Source: a virus. Taken from it: a stretch of DNA of 20,828 bases. Shown here in pieces: positions 8,059 through 17,591 of the stretch (position 1 is its first letter; the number at the start of each line of letters is the position of its first letter). The notes below the pieces were generated by a model, which saw nothing but the letters and a program-made list of their open reading frames with translations, searched no databases and was not told the DNA's origin. Made by a program: the position numbers and the translations under genes. Where the stretch lies: positions 1-20,828 of the IMG/VR virus record IMGVR_UViG_3300045283_000054, one strand, 5' to 3'.

Positions 8059-9336
8059 ATGACTATCCTTTCGGGCGCAAATGCCAAGATCGCCATCAAA
8101 AAGGAGGTCACCTATGGCGTTGCGCCCGGCGGGAATTATGACCTCATCCCGATCGTCTCTTTCGAGCTCGCGGAAACTCAGCAATTCAGCGACAACGACT
8201 TAATTGGCCAGGGCGCCGATACACTCCGGCCGCAGCGCGAGATCTCGACATTCCAGGGCAACGTCACGACGGCGATCGACCTACGCGCCATCGGGCATTG
8301 GTTCAACCTCGCGTTTGGCACGGCCGTTGACACGGGCGTTGTCTCTACCGGGACGATCACCTTCTCTGGCCAACCGGCCGTCGCCTCGACGATCACCATC
8401 AACGGCGTCGTGTTTACGTTCGTCTCGGGCGCCCCGAGCGGCGCGCAGATCCAAATCGCCGCGACGCTGACGCTGACGCTCGACAATATGGTTTCGGTCC
8501 TGAACGCGAGCGTCAACGCCGCGGTGGACGACTGCACCTATAGCAAGGTCGGGACGACCATCCTGCTCGCCACCAACGACACGGCGGGCGCGGCCGGCAA
8601 CACATTCACATTGGCGGCTTCCGCGGCCAGCCTGGGCGTGGCCAGCGCCCCGACGCTCACCGGCGGCGGCTTCTCTCACCTCTGGGTCTCCGGTGCCGCC
8701 GTCCTCGCGAGCTACAGCGCCGAGCGGCAGCACCCGGACGCGACGGTCCCGCTGTATGCGCTCTATTCGGGAATCCGGTGCGACAGTGTCTCGCTACAGT
8801 TGGAACCCACCGGCAAGGCCACGATCCAGTTTGCCGTCAACTACAAGAGCTGCGTGCGCTCGACCGTCACCGCGGCTGGCACGCCCGTCGCAATCAACGT
8901 CGAACGGTTTAGCAATTATCACAACTACATCGAACAGAACGGCACTCCGCTCGCGAAAATCGAGTCGGTAAGTCTGCCCTATGCCCTGAATAACGAAGAA
9001 ATTCGCTATGTCGGAGGCCGCGGAGAGATCGGCGACATTATCGCAGGCATCCGCACAGCCAATGGTCAGATGACGGCTCGCTTCGAGGACTGGAACCTAT
9101 TTGCTACCGCTGCCGCTGAGACGACCTTCAACGTCGGCCTTGGCTTCAGGAAAACGCCCGCCCAAGGCGGATGGAAGTTGGAGATCCTGGTGGAGCAAGC
9201 CGAATTCGGCAACCCGAGCGACCCGATCAACGGCCCCGCGGGGATCAAGGCGACGTTCCCCTTTATCGGCAGCCGGTCGACCGGTACCGGACGCATGATG
9301 AGCGTCCTACTCGTCAACGACGTGGCAAGTTATTGA
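8059..9336 (+). CDS. Major tail tube protein (gpV-like) with inserted beta domain
   Basis: A 425-residue protein that should stack as hexameric rings around the tape measure to make the tail tube. The N-terminus (ANAKIAIKKEVTYGVAPGG, then FELAETQQFSDNDLIG) and the C-terminus (KLEILVEQAEFGNPSDP, then FPFIGSRSTGTGRMMSVLLVND) belong to the tube fold. Residues about 94-204 form a separate domain (GTITFSGQPAVASTITINGV, then DNMVSVLNASVNAAV, then DTAGAAGNTFTLAASAA) seen in assorted phage structural proteins, which makes this copy longer than lambda gpV (246 residues). AGGTGGG lies upstream of ATG 8059. The last seven bases overlap, tail to tail, the minus-strand lipoprotein gene. Confidence 0.85.
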   Translation: MTILSGANAKIAIKKEVTYGVAPGGNYDLIPIVSFELAETQQFSDNDLIGQGADTLRPQREISTFQGNVTTAIDLRAIGHWFNLAFGTAVDTGVVSTGTITFSGQPAVASTITINGVVFTFVSGAPSGAQIQIAATLTLTLDNMVSVLNASVNAAVDDCTYSKVGTTILLATNDTAGAAGNTFTLAASAASLGVASAPTLTGGGFSHLWVSGAAVLASYSAERQHPDATVPLYALYSGIRCDSVSLQLEPTGKATIQFAVNYKSCVRSTVTAAGTPVAINVERFSNYHNYIEQNGTPLAKIESVSLPYALNNEEIRYVGGRGEIGDIIAGIRTANGQMTARFEDWNLFATAAAETTFNVGLGFRKTPAQGGWKLEILVEQAEFGNPSDPINGPAGIKATFPFIGSRSTGTGRMMSVLLVNDVASY

Positions 9337-9587
9337 ACGACCGGTTCACAGTGGAAGATAAAATCGTGCGTCATGCACATAGGGTCAACACAATCGGCGC
9401 GATACCATTCCGCCTTCCGCCCGAAAATGTCGCAGCTGTTGTCCGCCATATTGCGGACCTCGTCGTCTTTAGTCCACGGGGCGGCGATGATATGGACGCC
9501 ACCCTCTGTTATGTCAGTCACTCTCGGAACCGGCATGCAGCCCGCAAGGGCGGCAGCGACGACGGCGACGGCGGCAAGGCGGTACAT
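9330..9587 (-). CDS. Small cysteine-rich lipoprotein, antisense to the tail operon (moron candidate)
   Basis: An 85-residue protein on the opposite strand to everything around it. Residues 1-16 (MYRLAAVAVVAAALAG) form a lipoprotein signal peptide and LAGC is a textbook lipobox with Cys17 as the lipidation site. Met at +2 predicts outer-membrane rather than inner-membrane retention. The mature part has four more cysteines in its C-terminal half (NSC, ADC, PMC, FHC), enough for two disulfides in the periplasm. I do not recognise the family. It fills the gap between the tube and chaperone genes, a place where lambda has no gene. It runs convergently into the tube gene with a 7-bp overlap. Position, strand and export fit a lysogeny-expressed moron, for example superinfection exclusion, but that is inference. 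Confidence 0.7.
   Translation of the reverse strand: MYRLAAVAVVAAALAGCMPVPRVTDITEGGVHIIAAPWTKDDEVRNMADNSCDIFGRKAEWYRADCVDPMCMTHDFIFHCEPVVQ
9334..9348. other. Small inverted repeat at the convergent gene ends
   Basis: TGAAC and GTTCA form a perfect 5-bp stem around a 5-base loop, exactly where the tube gene and the minus-strand lipoprotein gene end. There is no following T-run on either strand, so it is a weak candidate for a bidirectional stop at best. Confidence 0.25.
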
Positions 9588-9652
9588 GGTCCCATCTCAT
9601 TTCTAGGTGCGCGGGACATGGCCCCTCGACGCTCTGTCTACAAGGCACACCG

Positions 9653-10102
9653 ATGATCCGGCTCGGCACGAAGCGCGAACCGGTATGGCTGGAGCTGGGC
9701 AACGGCGTCCGGGTGCGGCTACGCCCATTCACGGCGGTCGCCGAGATGGCCGCCCAACGCGTCGCCCATGCCTACCTCGCGGGCGTACCTGCGGGGCAGG
9801 AGGCCGACCCCGACGCTTTCCAGGAGGCTTGGTATGTCGAGCTCGGCCGCCGAGCAATCGATGCCTGGGAGGGCGTGCTCGACCAGGACGGCGAGCCCGC
9901 GCCCTGCGAACCCGATCTGGTGGAGCAGCTTCTGCGCAACTTCACGGGGATGTGCGTCAATTTTAAACATGAATGGATAATGCGGGTCGTAGTGCTAGGA
10001 GAGGAAAAAAACGTATCCGCGCCCTCGCCCAATGGCACTTCGGCGACGGGCCCGAGTACTGTGCAGGATGCAGCGGCTCCGAGCAGCCTTGCGCTACAGT
10101 AG
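9653..10102 (+). CDS. Tail assembly chaperone, lambda gpG-like
   Basis: A 149-residue protein between the tube and tape measure genes, the fixed place of the G/T chaperones that bind the tape measure and recruit tube subunits. The N-terminal part (residues 1-45) is a short beta domain (VWLELGNGVRVRLRPF), followed by helices (MAAQRVAHAYLAG, then EAWYVELGRRAIDAWEGVL, then EPDLVEQLLRNFTGMCVNF). After residue 117 the frame continues into a low-complexity Ser/Pro/Ala tail, typical of a reading past a frameshift site. Codons 119-120 are AAA AAC within the heptamer A AAA AAC, allowing a -1 shift into the overlapping T frame. ATG 9653 has AAGG about eight bases upstream. Confidence 0.85.
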   Translation: MIRLGTKREPVWLELGNGVRVRLRPFTAVAEMAAQRVAHAYLAGVPAGQEADPDAFQEAWYVELGRRAIDAWEGVLDQDGEPAPCEPDLVEQLLRNFTGMCVNFKHEWIMRVVVLGEEKNVSAPSPNGTSATGPSTVQDAAAPSSLALQ

Positions 10103-10377
10103 AGCCATGGCGCTGCACTTACTCGGTCGAGGCTCCGCAGACGGAGGAGGGCGCGAGCGTCTGGGCTCTGGTCATGCAGTGCCCGGGCCTTTGGCGCGTC
10201 GCTCCCATGGGCGGCATTATCGGCTTGGATTGGCTATCCATCATGACGGCAGCCGATGCCGTCGGCGTGGACAGGGACGCGGTCGCGTTGATGCTGCCGT
10301 CCGTCGAGGCTGGCTTGCGCGCGGCCGTGGCCAACCGCGAGGAGCGGGAAGAAATTGCCGGTCCAGATAAACCGTAG
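9973..10377 (+). CDS. T extension of the tail assembly chaperone, expressed as a G-T fusion by -1 frameshift
   Basis: This frame lies -1 relative to the gpG-like gene and is open from 9973, but the ATG there has no special support; the expected product begins at 9653 and changes frame at the slippery site, after codon AAC 10010-10012, continuing with CGT at 10012. The fusion would be 241 residues, compared with 279 for lambda gpG-T. The T part has a Cys-containing start (YCAGCSGSEQPC, later WRCTYS) and then a helical region (GLDWLSIMTAADAVGVDRDAVALMLPSVEAGLRAAVA), reminiscent of domains that bind tail tube subunits. It ends 23 bases inside the tape measure gene. Confidence 0.8.
   Translation: MDNAGRSARRGKKRIRALAQWHFGDGPEYCAGCSGSEQPCATVEPWRCTYSVEAPQTEEGASVWALVMQCPGLWRVAPMGGIIGLDWLSIMTAADAVGVDRDAVALMLPSVEAGLRAAVANREEREEIAGPDKP
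10006..10012 (+). promoter_or_regulatory. Slippery heptamer A AAA AAC for programmed -1 frameshift
   Basis: Within a run of seven A bases, the zero-frame codons are AAA AAC (10007-10012) preceded by A at 10006, which matches the X XXY YYZ pattern exactly. A tandem -1 slip leads into the T frame, which is open for 121 more codons. Lambda uses GGGAAAG in the same gene position. Confidence 0.82.
10021..10051 (+). promoter_or_regulatory. Candidate frameshift-stimulating hairpin
   Basis: GCCCTCGCC at 10021-10029 pairs with GGCGA (10042-10046) plus GGGC (10048-10051), giving nine base pairs with one bulged C and a 12-base loop. It begins eight bases after the slippery heptamer, the distance typical of stimulatory stems. 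Only the pairing is seen; no energy was calculated. Confidence 0.55.
10339..10344 (+). promoter_or_regulatory. Ribosome binding site GAGGAG for the tape measure gene
   Basis: GAGGAG lies ten bases before TTG 10355 inside the end of the T frame, and GGGAAG lies closer still. Together they support the unusual TTG start. Confidence 0.6.
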
Positions 10378-13542: not shown

Positions 13543-14010
13543 ATGCGCTTCGCAAACCAAAATATCGGCGCCACCGCCATCCCGACGGTGCCATACGTGG
13601 GGTTGCCTTTCCTCGAGGGCGGCAGGACGCGAGGCGGGCTCGACTGTTGGGGCCTCCTGCGCCTGGTCTATGACGAGCAGCTGCTGCTCAAATTGCCGAT
13701 GTTTGGGGAGCTCGCTGTGCGCCCCGGCGACCCCGCCTCGGCCGATGCCGTCCAGGCCCAGATCGAGGCCTCGGCGGCGGACTGGATCGAGGTCTCGCCC
13801 GGCGAGGAGGAGCCGTATGACGCGCTCCTTTTGCCAGTGATCGGCCGTCCGACACACGTCGCGCTAGTCGTGCTGCGGCCGCTCATGCTCCACGCCGACT
13901 TCATTCGCCGGCAGGTGAACTGCGTCCGCTGGGATGGCCCGGAATGGTCCGCCCGCGCGCGCCGGCGCCGCGTGTACCGGCATCCCATGCTCTGCTGGGG
14001 CGCCGCCTGA
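13543..14010 (+). CDS. NlpC/P60-type cysteine peptidase of the tail tip (gpK-like)
   Basis: A 155-residue protein that probably cleaves peptidoglycan peptide cross-links, or acts in tip assembly. The catalytic triad is visible: Cys35 in GLDCWGLLRLVY, His105 in RPTHVALVV, and a third residue likely His117 in LMLHADF. Lambda gpK has an additional N-terminal JAB domain, which is missing here. ATG 13543 is preceded by TAGGG at only three bases, so the start is plausible but not strongly marked; an earlier in-frame ATG lies inside the DUF1833 gene and would add a Ser/Arg-rich sequence unlike the family. The stop overlaps a possible CTG start of the tip gene (CTGA). Confidence 0.85.
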   Translation: MRFANQNIGATAIPTVPYVGLPFLEGGRTRGGLDCWGLLRLVYDEQLLLKLPMFGELAVRPGDPASADAVQAQIEASAADWIEVSPGEEEPYDALLLPVIGRPTHVALVVLRPLMLHADFIRRQVNCVRWDGPEWSARARRRRVYRHPMLCWGAA

Positions 14011-14021
14011 CGCATCTTCCC

Positions 14022-17000
14022 GTGGTGGCGGGCGCTCGTCCGCCGCCGGCGCAGCTGATTGCATGGCTCGACCCGTTCCGCCGCGAACGCCTGTGTGAGG
14101 CGATCGACGGCCGCCCCACCCTCGAGGAATTGGTCGAGCGACTGCCGCGCCGTAGCGGCCTACCCTTTGAGATCGCCATCCTGATCGGCGGCGAGGCTAT
14201 CCCAGTCGACCGCTGGCGCTACATCCGGCCGCGCCCGGGCTGCCATGTCCTGATGGTCCCGCGGCTTACCGGCGGCGGCGGAGCACTTCGCCTGATCGCC
14301 GGGCTGGCCATCGCGGCCCTCGCCGTCGCGGCGAGCGCGTTCACGTTCGGCGCGCTATCGGCGCCTCTTGGCATAGTCGCGGCCGGTCTCATCGCGGGCG
14401 GCATCGGAGCTGCGGTTAGTATCGGCGGGACGTTGGCGCTCAATGCCCTCATCCCACCCGCCAGCTCGGTCCTAAAACCCCTCGACACCAGTACCAGCCC
14501 GACCTATGCGATCACCGGCTCGCAAAACCAGATCATCCCATGGGGCGTAATCGCCAGGGTCTATGGCAAGCACAGGATCACGCCCGCGCTTGGCGCCAAG
14601 CCTTTCACAGAGCTCGTCGGCAATGACCAATACCTGCGGCAGCTATTCGTCTGGTCGTATGGGCCGTGCATCCTTACAGATGTTAGGATCGGCACGACGC
14701 CGCTCGATCAATTCCAGGAGGTGACGCGAGAGGACCGGCTCGGCTACCTGTCCGATACTCCGCTGACGCTGTTTCCTGGCGTAGTCGACGAGCAGGACTT
14801 CTCGATCGGCCTCGACGTCGGCGTGCAGAACGTCCGCACGACATCTACTCTGGCGACAGAATACAGTATCGATCTCAGCTGGCCGCAAGGCCTCTACCGG
14901 CTTGAGAACAACCCGCCCGGCAAGCGCAACACCGCCGAGGTCGGCATCCGTATCGAGCAATCCCCGACGGGGCTTGGGACTTGGACGATCGACTTTGACC
15001 AGCGGATAAGGCAGGCCCAGGCGAGCCCGCTACGGCTCGGCTTCCGGTTCAGTCTCCCTGCGCAAGGTGCCTATGATATTCGCGTCACGATGACCTTCCG
15101 CGGCTCCGGCGACAATCAGTATGTGACGACAACATTCTGGACGGCGCTTCGCAGCATCGAGGCGAGAGAGCCTATCAACTTCCCGGGACTGACGAAGACC
15201 GCCATCCGGATATTGGCCACCGAGCAGCTAAACGGCGTCGTTAACGAACTGAACGGCGTCGTCTCCTCGATCCTTCGCGACTGGAACGGCTCTGCCTGGG
15301 TCGAGCAGGAAACCGCCAATCCGGCAAGCGTCTACCGTGACGTTCTCCAGGGCAGCGGGAATGCCCGACCGCTGGCCGATGGTCGCATCGACCTTGCGGC
15401 GATCCAGGCGTGGCACGTCTTCTGCGACTCCAACAATATGGAGTTCAACGGAGTATTCGACGACGTCGCCTCGGTGTACGAGCGCCTCCGCTCAATCGCG
15501 GCGACCGGTCGAGGCTTCCCTGCGCAGATCAACGGCCGCTGGTCCGTGATCTGGGACTATCCCGGCCGCCCGCTCGCGCAGCTGTTCACCATCCGCAATG
15601 TGCGCAACTTCGCAGTTGACAAGCCGCTCGTGCGGCGCCCGCATGCATATCGCGTGCGCTTCATCAATCGCGACAAGGATTGGCAATCCGACGAGCGCAT
15701 CGTCCCGGTCGACGGCTTCACCGAAGAGACGGCCGTCCTCTACGAGACGCGCGAAGACCCCTACGTCACGGCCAGCGATCGGGTCTTCAAGGATACGATC
15801 TATGACGATGCGCAGGCACGGCTTCGGCCCGAGAACATAACATTTGAGACGGACTGGGAATACCTTGCCTGTACTGTCGGAGATCTCGTCCAAGTCCAGC
15901 ATGACGTCATGTTCTGGGGCTCTGGCGCCGGTCGGATCAAGGCCCTGACTGTCAGCGCCGGCATCGTCGAGGGTTTTGTACTAGACGAGAAGATAACCCT
16001 CCCCGCGATGCCCGTCGTGGTCCGCCAGCGCTATGCCGACGGCTCGCAAGCCGTCCGCCAGATCGTCGAGCAGCTGATCGTCACGGATACCGTCACACTG
16101 TCGGACTTCATCGCGCTCGTCGACGCGCCGGCGGTTGGCGACCTCGTCGCGATCGGGCAGCAGGGCATCGAGACGGTGTCCTGTGTCGTCCAGAAGATCG
16201 AGCCGCAAGCCAATCTCTCCGCGCGCCTCACGCTGGTCGAGGCAGCCGAGAACATCCATCTGGCCGATACCGGCGAGGTGCCCCCGTTCGTCTCGAGGAT
16301 CACCCTTCCGCCAGGCGACCTGGTCCCCGCAATCGAGGAGCTGATCAGCGACGAGCGCGTGCTGCGGCGGGACACGGACGGCAACCTGCGCCCCGTGATC
16401 CTCGTCGTGCTGCGGCCGAGCCAGCAGCGTCCGGTTGCGGAGCTCGCGAGCATCGAGATCGACTATCGCGACGTCGATACGGTCGCTTGGCGCCAGGAGA
16501 TCGCGCCGCCGGATTCGACGCAAGTCGTGCTCCGCGATGTCGAGACGCCGGTTGTCTACGAGATCCGGGCCCGCTTCATCTACCGGACCGGGCGGGCCGG
16601 CCCATGGTTCGGCCCCATCCTCCACCAGGTTGTGGGGCTCACCGGCCTGCCGCCCGATGTCCTGACCGGCGACGTCGAGGGCGATTTCCTCATATGGCGC
16701 TATCCGACCCAGCCGCCGGACTTTGCTGGGTTCGAGGTGCGCTGGTCGCCCGACGTCACGGTCGCGCCCTTGCAAGCGACGCCTGCTCATGACGGCCTCC
16801 TGTCAGACACGAGTTTTGATCTGCGCCGCATCTCAGGCACGGTCGCCATCCTGTTCGTGTGGGCTCTCGACACCACGGGCAACCGTAGCCTTAACGCCCT
16901 GGCAGTCCTCCGCGGCAATGCCCCCGGCGAGAACTTCCAGACGGTCACGACCAGCGACCAGGCACCGGCTTGGACTGGCGCTCTCACCGATGGGACAGTC

Positions 17001-17591
17001 GCCGGCGGCGATCTCGTCAGCGACGACGCCTCGATGTTCTACCCCGAGCCTGCAATGCAGGACTTCTACCGCGGCGCCCCGACCGATCCATTCTTTACGG
17101 TTTCGCTGGTCACGCTCTCCTACCGCTTTGCGTACGTGGTCGCGGGCACCGCCGAGGCGAGCGACCGGATCGGCGCCACGGTCGTCGCGACCGGTGACTG
17201 GACGCTCTATTATCGCGAGGGCGCATCGACCTCCGATGACCCGGCCGACTATCTCCCGGTGAGCGGACGAATTGTGGCGACGCCGGGCGAGACGATCACC
17301 TTCCTTCTGCTCGCGCGCGGCACCGTCACCTCGCTTGTGATCTCGCACCTCGCGCCCGAGCGGTCGCAGACCTTCGACGGCGTGGCCATCCTCTCCGCGA
17401 GCTCGCGCATAACCGCGGCTGCCGGCGTGTTCCGGGCCATCCGGGCCGTCATCGCCACCATTCACGGCGGCGTGGGCGCATCCGTGCAGGTGCTCGACCG
17501 CAACGCCGTCTCCGGGCCGCTTGTCCAGCTGCTCACGAGCGCGGGCGCTGGCGTGTCCGGCGTCATCGACGCACAGCTGGTCGGCTACTGA
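14022..17591 (+). CDS. Large tail tip / host specificity protein, gpJ (TipJ-like), with gpI-like N-terminal domain
   Basis: The central tip protein, about 1190 residues, closing the tube and carrying receptor binding. Numbering is from CTG 14007, whose CTGA overlap with the peptidase stop gives THLPVVAGARPPP; the coordinates use the first conventional start, GTG 14022. About 1-85 form a beta-grasp-like domain (EAIDGRPTLEELVERLP, then IPVDRWRYIRPRPGCHVLMV) resembling what lambda makes separately as gpI. About 92-150 is a very hydrophobic Ala/Gly hairpin (LRLIAGLAIAALAVAASAF). The tip core follows (GSQNQIIPWGVIARVYGKHR), then AWHVFCDSNNMEFNGVF near 470-485. About 792-972 hold fibronectin III-like strands (YEIRARFIYRTGRAGPWFGP, GFEVRWSPD). 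The last 220 residues are beta-rich. No separate gpI gene exists in the cluster. Confidence 0.88.
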   Translation: MVAGARPPPAQLIAWLDPFRRERLCEAIDGRPTLEELVERLPRRSGLPFEIAILIGGEAIPVDRWRYIRPRPGCHVLMVPRLTGGGGALRLIAGLAIAALAVAASAFTFGALSAPLGIVAAGLIAGGIGAAVSIGGTLALNALIPPASSVLKPLDTSTSPTYAITGSQNQIIPWGVIARVYGKHRITPALGAKPFTELVGNDQYLRQLFVWSYGPCILTDVRIGTTPLDQFQEVTREDRLGYLSDTPLTLFPGVVDEQDFSIGLDVGVQNVRTTSTLATEYSIDLSWPQGLYRLENNPPGKRNTAEVGIRIEQSPTGLGTWTIDFDQRIRQAQASPLRLGFRFSLPAQGAYDIRVTMTFRGSGDNQYVTTTFWTALRSIEAREPINFPGLTKTAIRILATEQLNGVVNELNGVVSSILRDWNGSAWVEQETANPASVYRDVLQGSGNARPLADGRIDLAAIQAWHVFCDSNNMEFNGVFDDVASVYERLRSIAATGRGFPAQINGRWSVIWDYPGRPLAQLFTIRNVRNFAVDKPLVRRPHAYRVRFINRDKDWQSDERIVPVDGFTEETAVLYETREDPYVTASDRVFKDTIYDDAQARLRPENITFETDWEYLACTVGDLVQVQHDVMFWGSGAGRIKALTVSAGIVEGFVLDEKITLPAMPVVVRQRYADGSQAVRQIVEQLIVTDTVTLSDFIALVDAPAVGDLVAIGQQGIETVSCVVQKIEPQANLSARLTLVEAAENIHLADTGEVPPFVSRITLPPGDLVPAIEELISDERVLRRDTDGNLRPVILVVLRPSQQRPVAELASIEIDYRDVDTVAWRQEIAPPDSTQVVLRDVETPVVYEIRARFIYRTGRAGPWFGPILHQVVGLTGLPPDVLTGDVEGDFLIWRYPTQPPDFAGFEVRWSPDVTVAPLQATPAHDGLLSDTSFDLRRISGTVAILFVWALDTTGNRSLNALAVLRGNAPGENFQTVTTSDQAPAWTGALTDGTVAGGDLVSDDASMFYPEPAMQDFYRGAPTDPFFTVSLVTLSYRFAYVVAGTAEASDRIGATVVATGDWTLYYREGASTSDDPADYLPVSGRIVATPGETITFLLLARGTVTSLVISHLAPERSQTFDGVAILSASSRITAAAGVFRAIRAVIATIHGGVGASVQVLDRNAVSGPLVQLLTSAGAGVSGVIDAQLVGY

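Follow-up and report, generated by a model that had tools for sequence, protein, structure and literature searches.

Small phage lipoproteins that jam the receptors of their hosts are known mainly from coliphages. One of them is Cor of the phages N15, phi80 and T1, a lipoprotein of 78 aa that is encoded by a moron and is active in the lysogen. The mechanism has been solved for Llp of phage T5, which binds FhuA from the periplasm and folds its extracellular loops inward (PMC9586334), and for the periplasmic lipoprotein Rtp45 of the Escherichia phage Rtp, which binds LptDE in a manner comparable to that of Llp and FhuA (PMC12685063). An exclusion moron, gp15, is also found in the tail module of HK97, near the tube and chaperone genes, and the defence hotspots of P2 and P4 are small variable loci between conserved phage genes that hold diverse anti-phage cargo, including a TIR protein (PMC9122126). 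Here we analyze a putative lipoprotein gene lying antisense in the tail operon of the IMG/VR virus record IMGVR_UViG_3300045283_000054, of which a stretch of 20,828 bases, called the window below, was studied.

The plus strand of the window holds the genes for terminase, portal, protease, decoration protein, capsid, tail terminator, tube and a chaperone pair, as well as tape measure, tip proteins and a collagen-like fibre; thus all the recognised terminase, head and tail genes are on that strand, in agreement with the original prediction. The same prediction placed the lipoprotein gene in a gap between tail tube and chaperone genes, and the identity of both neighbours was confirmed by matches to PF18906 and phrog_313, respectively (Table 1). 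Among GenBank phages, the closest tube genes are those of Rhodobacter capsulatus phages (33-35% identity). Searches of the window for RNA families and tRNA genes returned none. In the window and in the Rhodobacter phages, the tube protein contains an additional stretch of approximately 110 residues (about residues 94-200) that is missing from the shorter tube relatives of L002 and L004 and probably represents a surface domain acquired by insertion. An in-frame A AAA AAC heptamer (10006-10012) occurs shortly before the end of ORF 9653-10102, the chaperone ORF, where it overlaps ORF 9973-10377 in the -1 frame, and the heptamer is a candidate for a programmed -1 frameshift of the G/GT kind.

Table 1 Features around the insertion in the window, and accessory genes at the tube-chaperone junction of related phages.
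Feature	Location	Strand	Details
Tail tube gene (Phage_tube_2)	window, 8059..9336	+	PF18906, E 6e-30
Insertion, tube stop to chaperone start	window, 9337..9652		316 nt
Putative orphan lipoprotein gene, 85 aa	window, 9330..9587	-	ATG 9587, stop 9330
Predicted signal peptide and lipobox region	window, 9537..9587	-	MYRLAAVAVVAAALAGC
Competing ORF, 107 aa	window, 9333..9656	+	TTG overlaps tube stop, TGA overlaps chaperone ATG
Tail assembly chaperone (G-like)	window, 9653..10102	+	phrog_313, E 9e-10
J-like tip protein	window, 13944-17591		
Phd-PIN toxin-antitoxin	L121/L326		
BrnTA	L280; L015/L251		L015/L251 by similar antitoxin
TIR protein, SpbK-like, with a further ORF of 312 aa	L150, 1198-3658		SpbK match, PADLOC E 3e-20
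LysE exporter	L023		
MFS transporter	L276		
Nudix hydrolase	L182/L263		
UPF0149/SEC-C	L016		PADLOC candidate defence model PDC-S12, E 1e-35
DUF1186/SEC-C	L147		
DsbD-like, ArsR-like, ArsP permease and thioredoxin genes	L005, 3930-6633		faecal phage
IS110 element	L311		
Second lipoprotein	L269	-	MLIRYVVGMALCGALGGC...
Related exported proteins (MKWVLIW...), two Cys	L283, 4276-4482; L277, 4246-4488	-	
One-helix membrane protein, ~83 residues	L114, L143, L156, L157, L160	-	255-nt gap

The minus-strand ORF had been predicted to encode a lipoprotein with an LAGC lipobox, a lipidated Cys17 and four further cysteines, and we find each of these elements in its translation, MYRLAAVAVVAAALAGCMPVPRVTDITEGGVHIIAAPWTKDDEVRNMADNSCDIFGRKAEWYRADCVDPMCMTHDFIFHCEPVVQ. 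The N-terminus reads MYR-LAAVAVVAAA-LAGC17 and thereby combines a positively charged n-region, a hydrophobic h-region and a lipobox of the form [LVI][ASTVI][GAS]C within the first ~25 residues, as in bacterial lipoproteins that are substrates of signal peptidase II; residues 1-16 would form the signal peptide and Cys17 is the predicted site of lipidation. The residue after Cys17 is a Met and not an Asp, and under the general Lol rule of E. coli such lipoproteins go to the outer membrane, which is therefore the predicted destination. The mature part is 69 aa long and has its remaining cysteines at positions 52, 66, 71 and 80. A small lipoprotein in a tailed phage could also be an outer-membrane spanin subunit (Rz1-like) or another lysis protein, but we regard this as highly improbable, as the mature part is not Pro-rich (5 Pro), no family match points that way, and the gene is not embedded in an Rz gene and lies among tail genes, outside a lysis cassette and on the strand opposite to the late genes. 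AlphaFold2, run on the single sequence without relatives, gave a weak strand-helix-strand outline at a pLDDT of 42 that was unusable, and a fold search with this model returned no match.

The antisense gene ends within the tube gene, whose last codons provide its stop codon in a convergent overlap of 7 nt. At the other end, 65 nt separate its start from that of the chaperone gene, so that any promoter on the minus strand would have to be located in this interval or within the chaperone gene itself. We found no sigma-70-type promoter for the ORF, and its ribosome-binding site is no better than those in shuffled sequence. The convergent arrangement with the tube gene, along with a weak terminator-like hairpin on the minus strand (9379-9365), could alternatively mean that an antisense RNA dampens tail gene expression and that the ORF is incidental. 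We find this very improbable, since the hairpin has just 5 pairs and lies inside the ORF, no Rfam match was obtained, and the cargo found at the same place in sister phages (see below) codes for protein.

The length of the ORF is not significant in itself, as one of at least 85 aa occurs in 35% of the dinucleotide shuffles of the gap. The lipoprotein signal, on the other hand, appeared in 0 of 3000 gap shuffles, and the ORF is the sole one with such a signal in the six frames of the window. When 1.68 Mb of related DNA was scanned for the same pattern, it was found at 8 of 16,345 ATG starts, the eight being the window gene, the true lipoprotein YecR of E. coli, and six false hits that represent approximately three independent events. 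None of the other five frames reaches the coding score of the minus frame (p = 0.0005 against shuffles), and the codon adaptation of the ORF, 0.603, falls between the mean of the true genes of the window (0.683 +/- 0.076) and that of antisense frames (0.543 +/- 0.060). In combination with the codon signal and the existence of the gap, the lipobox makes it likely that the minus ORF is a real gene.

A challenge to this comes from the opposite strand, where a longer ORF, absent from the original prediction, could be the real gene and the minus ORF no gene at all. The apparent signal peptide would then be nothing but the antisense of a Gly/Asp-rich stretch, GGSDDGDGG read backwards giving AAVAVVAAA. 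The plus frame stays open across the gap and overlaps both neighbours, by TTGA and ATGA, in the manner of coupled genes; the difference in codon score is small (0.097 bits per codon for the minus ORF and 0.054 for the plus ORF), and 2.9% of the true gene segments in the window would appear reversed to that degree. Nevertheless the codon adaptation is lower for the plus ORF (0.523), its product has neither a homologue nor a PHROG match, a full lipobox rightly spaced from an ATG is as rare as the scan above indicates, and the identifiable cargo at this junction is antisense in most related phages. Although one sequence cannot separate the two ORFs with certainty, we judge the plus ORF less likely than the minus ORF, and consider it improbable that it is the gene.

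Homologues of the putative lipoprotein were searched for in several collections. None that was credible turned up in IMG/VR, GenBank phages, plasmids or GTDB contigs, and comparison with Pfam, NCBIfam, PADLOC and PDB likewise yielded nothing credible. With this single protein as query, the scans of collections recover only relatives that share near-exact stretches of 8 residues, and moderately diverged homologues may have escaped them. The one match in the genome contigs, L006, was rejected as spurious, since it falls in a gene for ribosomal protein S8 and does not follow its reading frame, and a non-significant match to phrog_902 (E 0.0097) was set aside as uninformative since at a loose cutoff 12 of 14 control genomes match as well. 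The PHROG model of Cor matched at E 0.2, which is not significant, and only over the signal peptide. There was no BLASTP alignment with N15 Cor and none with E. coli YecR, and no Pfam match at E 10. The suspicion that the family might be undescribed thus agrees with the searches, none of which matched a described family. It follows from the lack of homologues that there is no conservation to report and no test of selection.

Relatives of the locus were fetched with the tube and chaperone profiles, and the 308 loci obtained were grouped into 119 clusters at 90% nucleotide identity. None of the other junctions holds a homologue of the window lipoprotein. In 96 of the 119 clusters the gap between tube and chaperone is at most 60 nt, and in 19 it exceeds 200 nt. 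RcKvothe has a gap of 12 nt and the nearest IMG/VR relative, G004, one of 57 nt, both devoid of the lipoprotein gene. These short junctions, in the nearest relatives as well as in the majority of clusters, identify the lipoprotein gene as an addition that related phages lack at this position, which is what defines a moron. By the test that the original prediction set itself, a homologue at this locus in related phages, the claim would be refuted; we consider this requirement excessive, given the rapid turnover of cargo at sites of this kind. Another part of the prediction, a separate antisense insertion, is supported by the survey. The window contains late genes only, which counts against the moron reading insofar as a temperate lifestyle has to be inferred. 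All in all, we hold it probable that a real moron lipoprotein is encoded here.

A direct empty and filled pair is seen in L022 and L023, which are 93-95% identical in nucleotide sequence on both sides of the junction and have gaps of 22 and 803 nt, respectively, the latter holding a gene for a LysE-family exporter exactly between the tube stop and the chaperone start. It is clear from this pair and from the accessory genes present in about a dozen other phages (Table 1) that the tube-chaperone junction is a recurrent cargo site. The idea that it alone is special was weakened by the junction between tail terminator and tube, which exceeds 200 nt in 9 of 109 clusters; the corresponding figure for the tube-chaperone junction is 16 of 109 (p = 0.20). 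In at least one of the nine enlarged terminator-tube junctions, that of L295, the content resembles a head-tail gene and not cargo. As a separate observation, cargo named by eye at the terminator-tube junctions of L155, L137, L185, L189, L261 and L279 comprises bactofilin-like, RES-Xre-like, HigBA-like and HNH-type homing genes.

The cargo at the tube-chaperone junction includes four kinds of small envelope protein on the minus strand when the window lipoprotein is counted. The exported protein of L283 matches PHROG 5579 (E 3e-5), a family whose function is not known. The one-helix membrane protein of L114 and its like is conserved, the end of its gene overlaps the tube gene, and it has no confident family match. 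In L150 the TIR gene is accompanied by a second ORF, antisense and 312 aa long, for which no matches were obtained, and the two are a candidate defence pair. The gene cluster of L005 is possibly an assembly artefact, the record being marked unverified. By our own count, 10 distinct cargo families are antisense and 3 are sense (about p = 0.09), a bias that is suggestive only. Repeated insertion of accessory genes, among them defence and envelope proteins and mostly antisense, fits lysogenic conversion.

The lipoprotein of L269 is of particular relevance for the function of the window gene. It shares 57% identity with a lipoprotein encoded on a Paracoccus megaplasmid, in the midst of ordinary host genes, and it is not related to any exclusion protein. 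This similarity shows that the tube-chaperone junction can take up lipoproteins of the host, so that the window lipoprotein may have a role other than exclusion. Accordingly, the latter could be a moron lipoprotein that was captured from a bacterial chromosome and alters the envelope or the stress physiology of the lysogen with no exclusion of phages. Besides L269, the transporters and the Nudix hydrolase among the other cargo speak for this explanation, while no relative of the window protein was found in plasmids or genome contigs, in scans that demanded near-exact 8-residue matches. We regard it as a serious, if somewhat doubtful, possibility.

Our best reading, which we put forward tentatively, is instead that the moron makes an outer-membrane lipoprotein that protects the infected cell by blocking a receptor. 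By analogy with the systems introduced above, superinfection exclusion, though unproven, comes first among the candidate functions, and we consider it about half as probable as the moron lipoprotein itself. The accessory gene inserted at the tube-chaperone junction would have a promoter of its own, directed against the late operon, and could thus be expressed in a lysogen whose tail genes are silent. After export, its product would receive a lipid at Cys17 and travel to the outer membrane, probably to the periplasmic face, and one or two disulphides would probably hold the mature domain together. From the periplasm, the lipoprotein would most likely bind an outer-membrane phage receptor, as Llp binds FhuA and Rtp45 binds LptDE, with the result that additional phages using this class of receptor might fail to adsorb or inject. 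A still more speculative view, which we find rather doubtful, is that the window gene represents an undescribed family of exclusion lipoproteins with two internal disulphides, and that the junction is an undescribed, largely antisense site of envelope-blocking and defence cargo, swapped by prophages, in a large group of siphophages related to the Rhodobacter phages.

If true, an unrelated exclusion lipoprotein in the present group of phages would widen the set of such proteins and point to host receptors. In our opinion the site outweighs the single gene in importance. Cargo is accepted on either side of the tube gene, and since the junctions there carry easily recognised variable cargo in many IMG/VR phages, they offer a simple route for harvesting candidate exclusion and defence genes.

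In comparison with known systems, the window protein resembles Llp, Cor and Rtp45 in size class and plan (a lipid-bearing Cys and internal disulphide) and not in sequence. Like the window protein, T5 Llp is a small phage-encoded lipoprotein of approximately 60-70 aa in mature form, with a lipid Cys and internal cysteines, and its gene is likewise transcribed opposite to the neighbouring late gene. Llp, however, has two internal cysteines where the window lipoprotein has four, and its gene adjoins the receptor-binding gene (pb5) of a virulent phage, whereas the window gene lies in the gap between tube and chaperone with the J-like tip gene 4.3 kb away, so that an Llp-like proximity to a receptor-binding gene is not upheld. 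Family searches found no similarity of the window lipoprotein to Llp, which itself was compared by cysteine pattern only. Cor is similar in size, but has two internal cysteines in place of four, and its gene follows the tail tip gene on the same strand and is not antisense. The traits of the Llp/Cor class, namely sequence similarity, a single internal disulphide and a location beside the receptor-binding or tail-tip gene, are thus absent, and homology to Llp or Cor finds no support, given the differing cysteine pattern of the former and the failure to align the latter. Rtp45, with one disulphide, is a small lipoprotein blocking an outer-membrane receptor and may be likened to the window protein by this plan. 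HK97 gp15 shares the tail module with the window gene, but is encoded on the plus strand between chaperone and tape measure and is a predicted inner-membrane protein, not a lipoprotein (PMC10883804). The hotspots of P2 and P4 lie beside cos and others are in regulatory regions (PMC9122126), while the present site is inside the tail operon; unlike them, it usually holds a single gene or gene pair, often antisense, and is empty in most phages.
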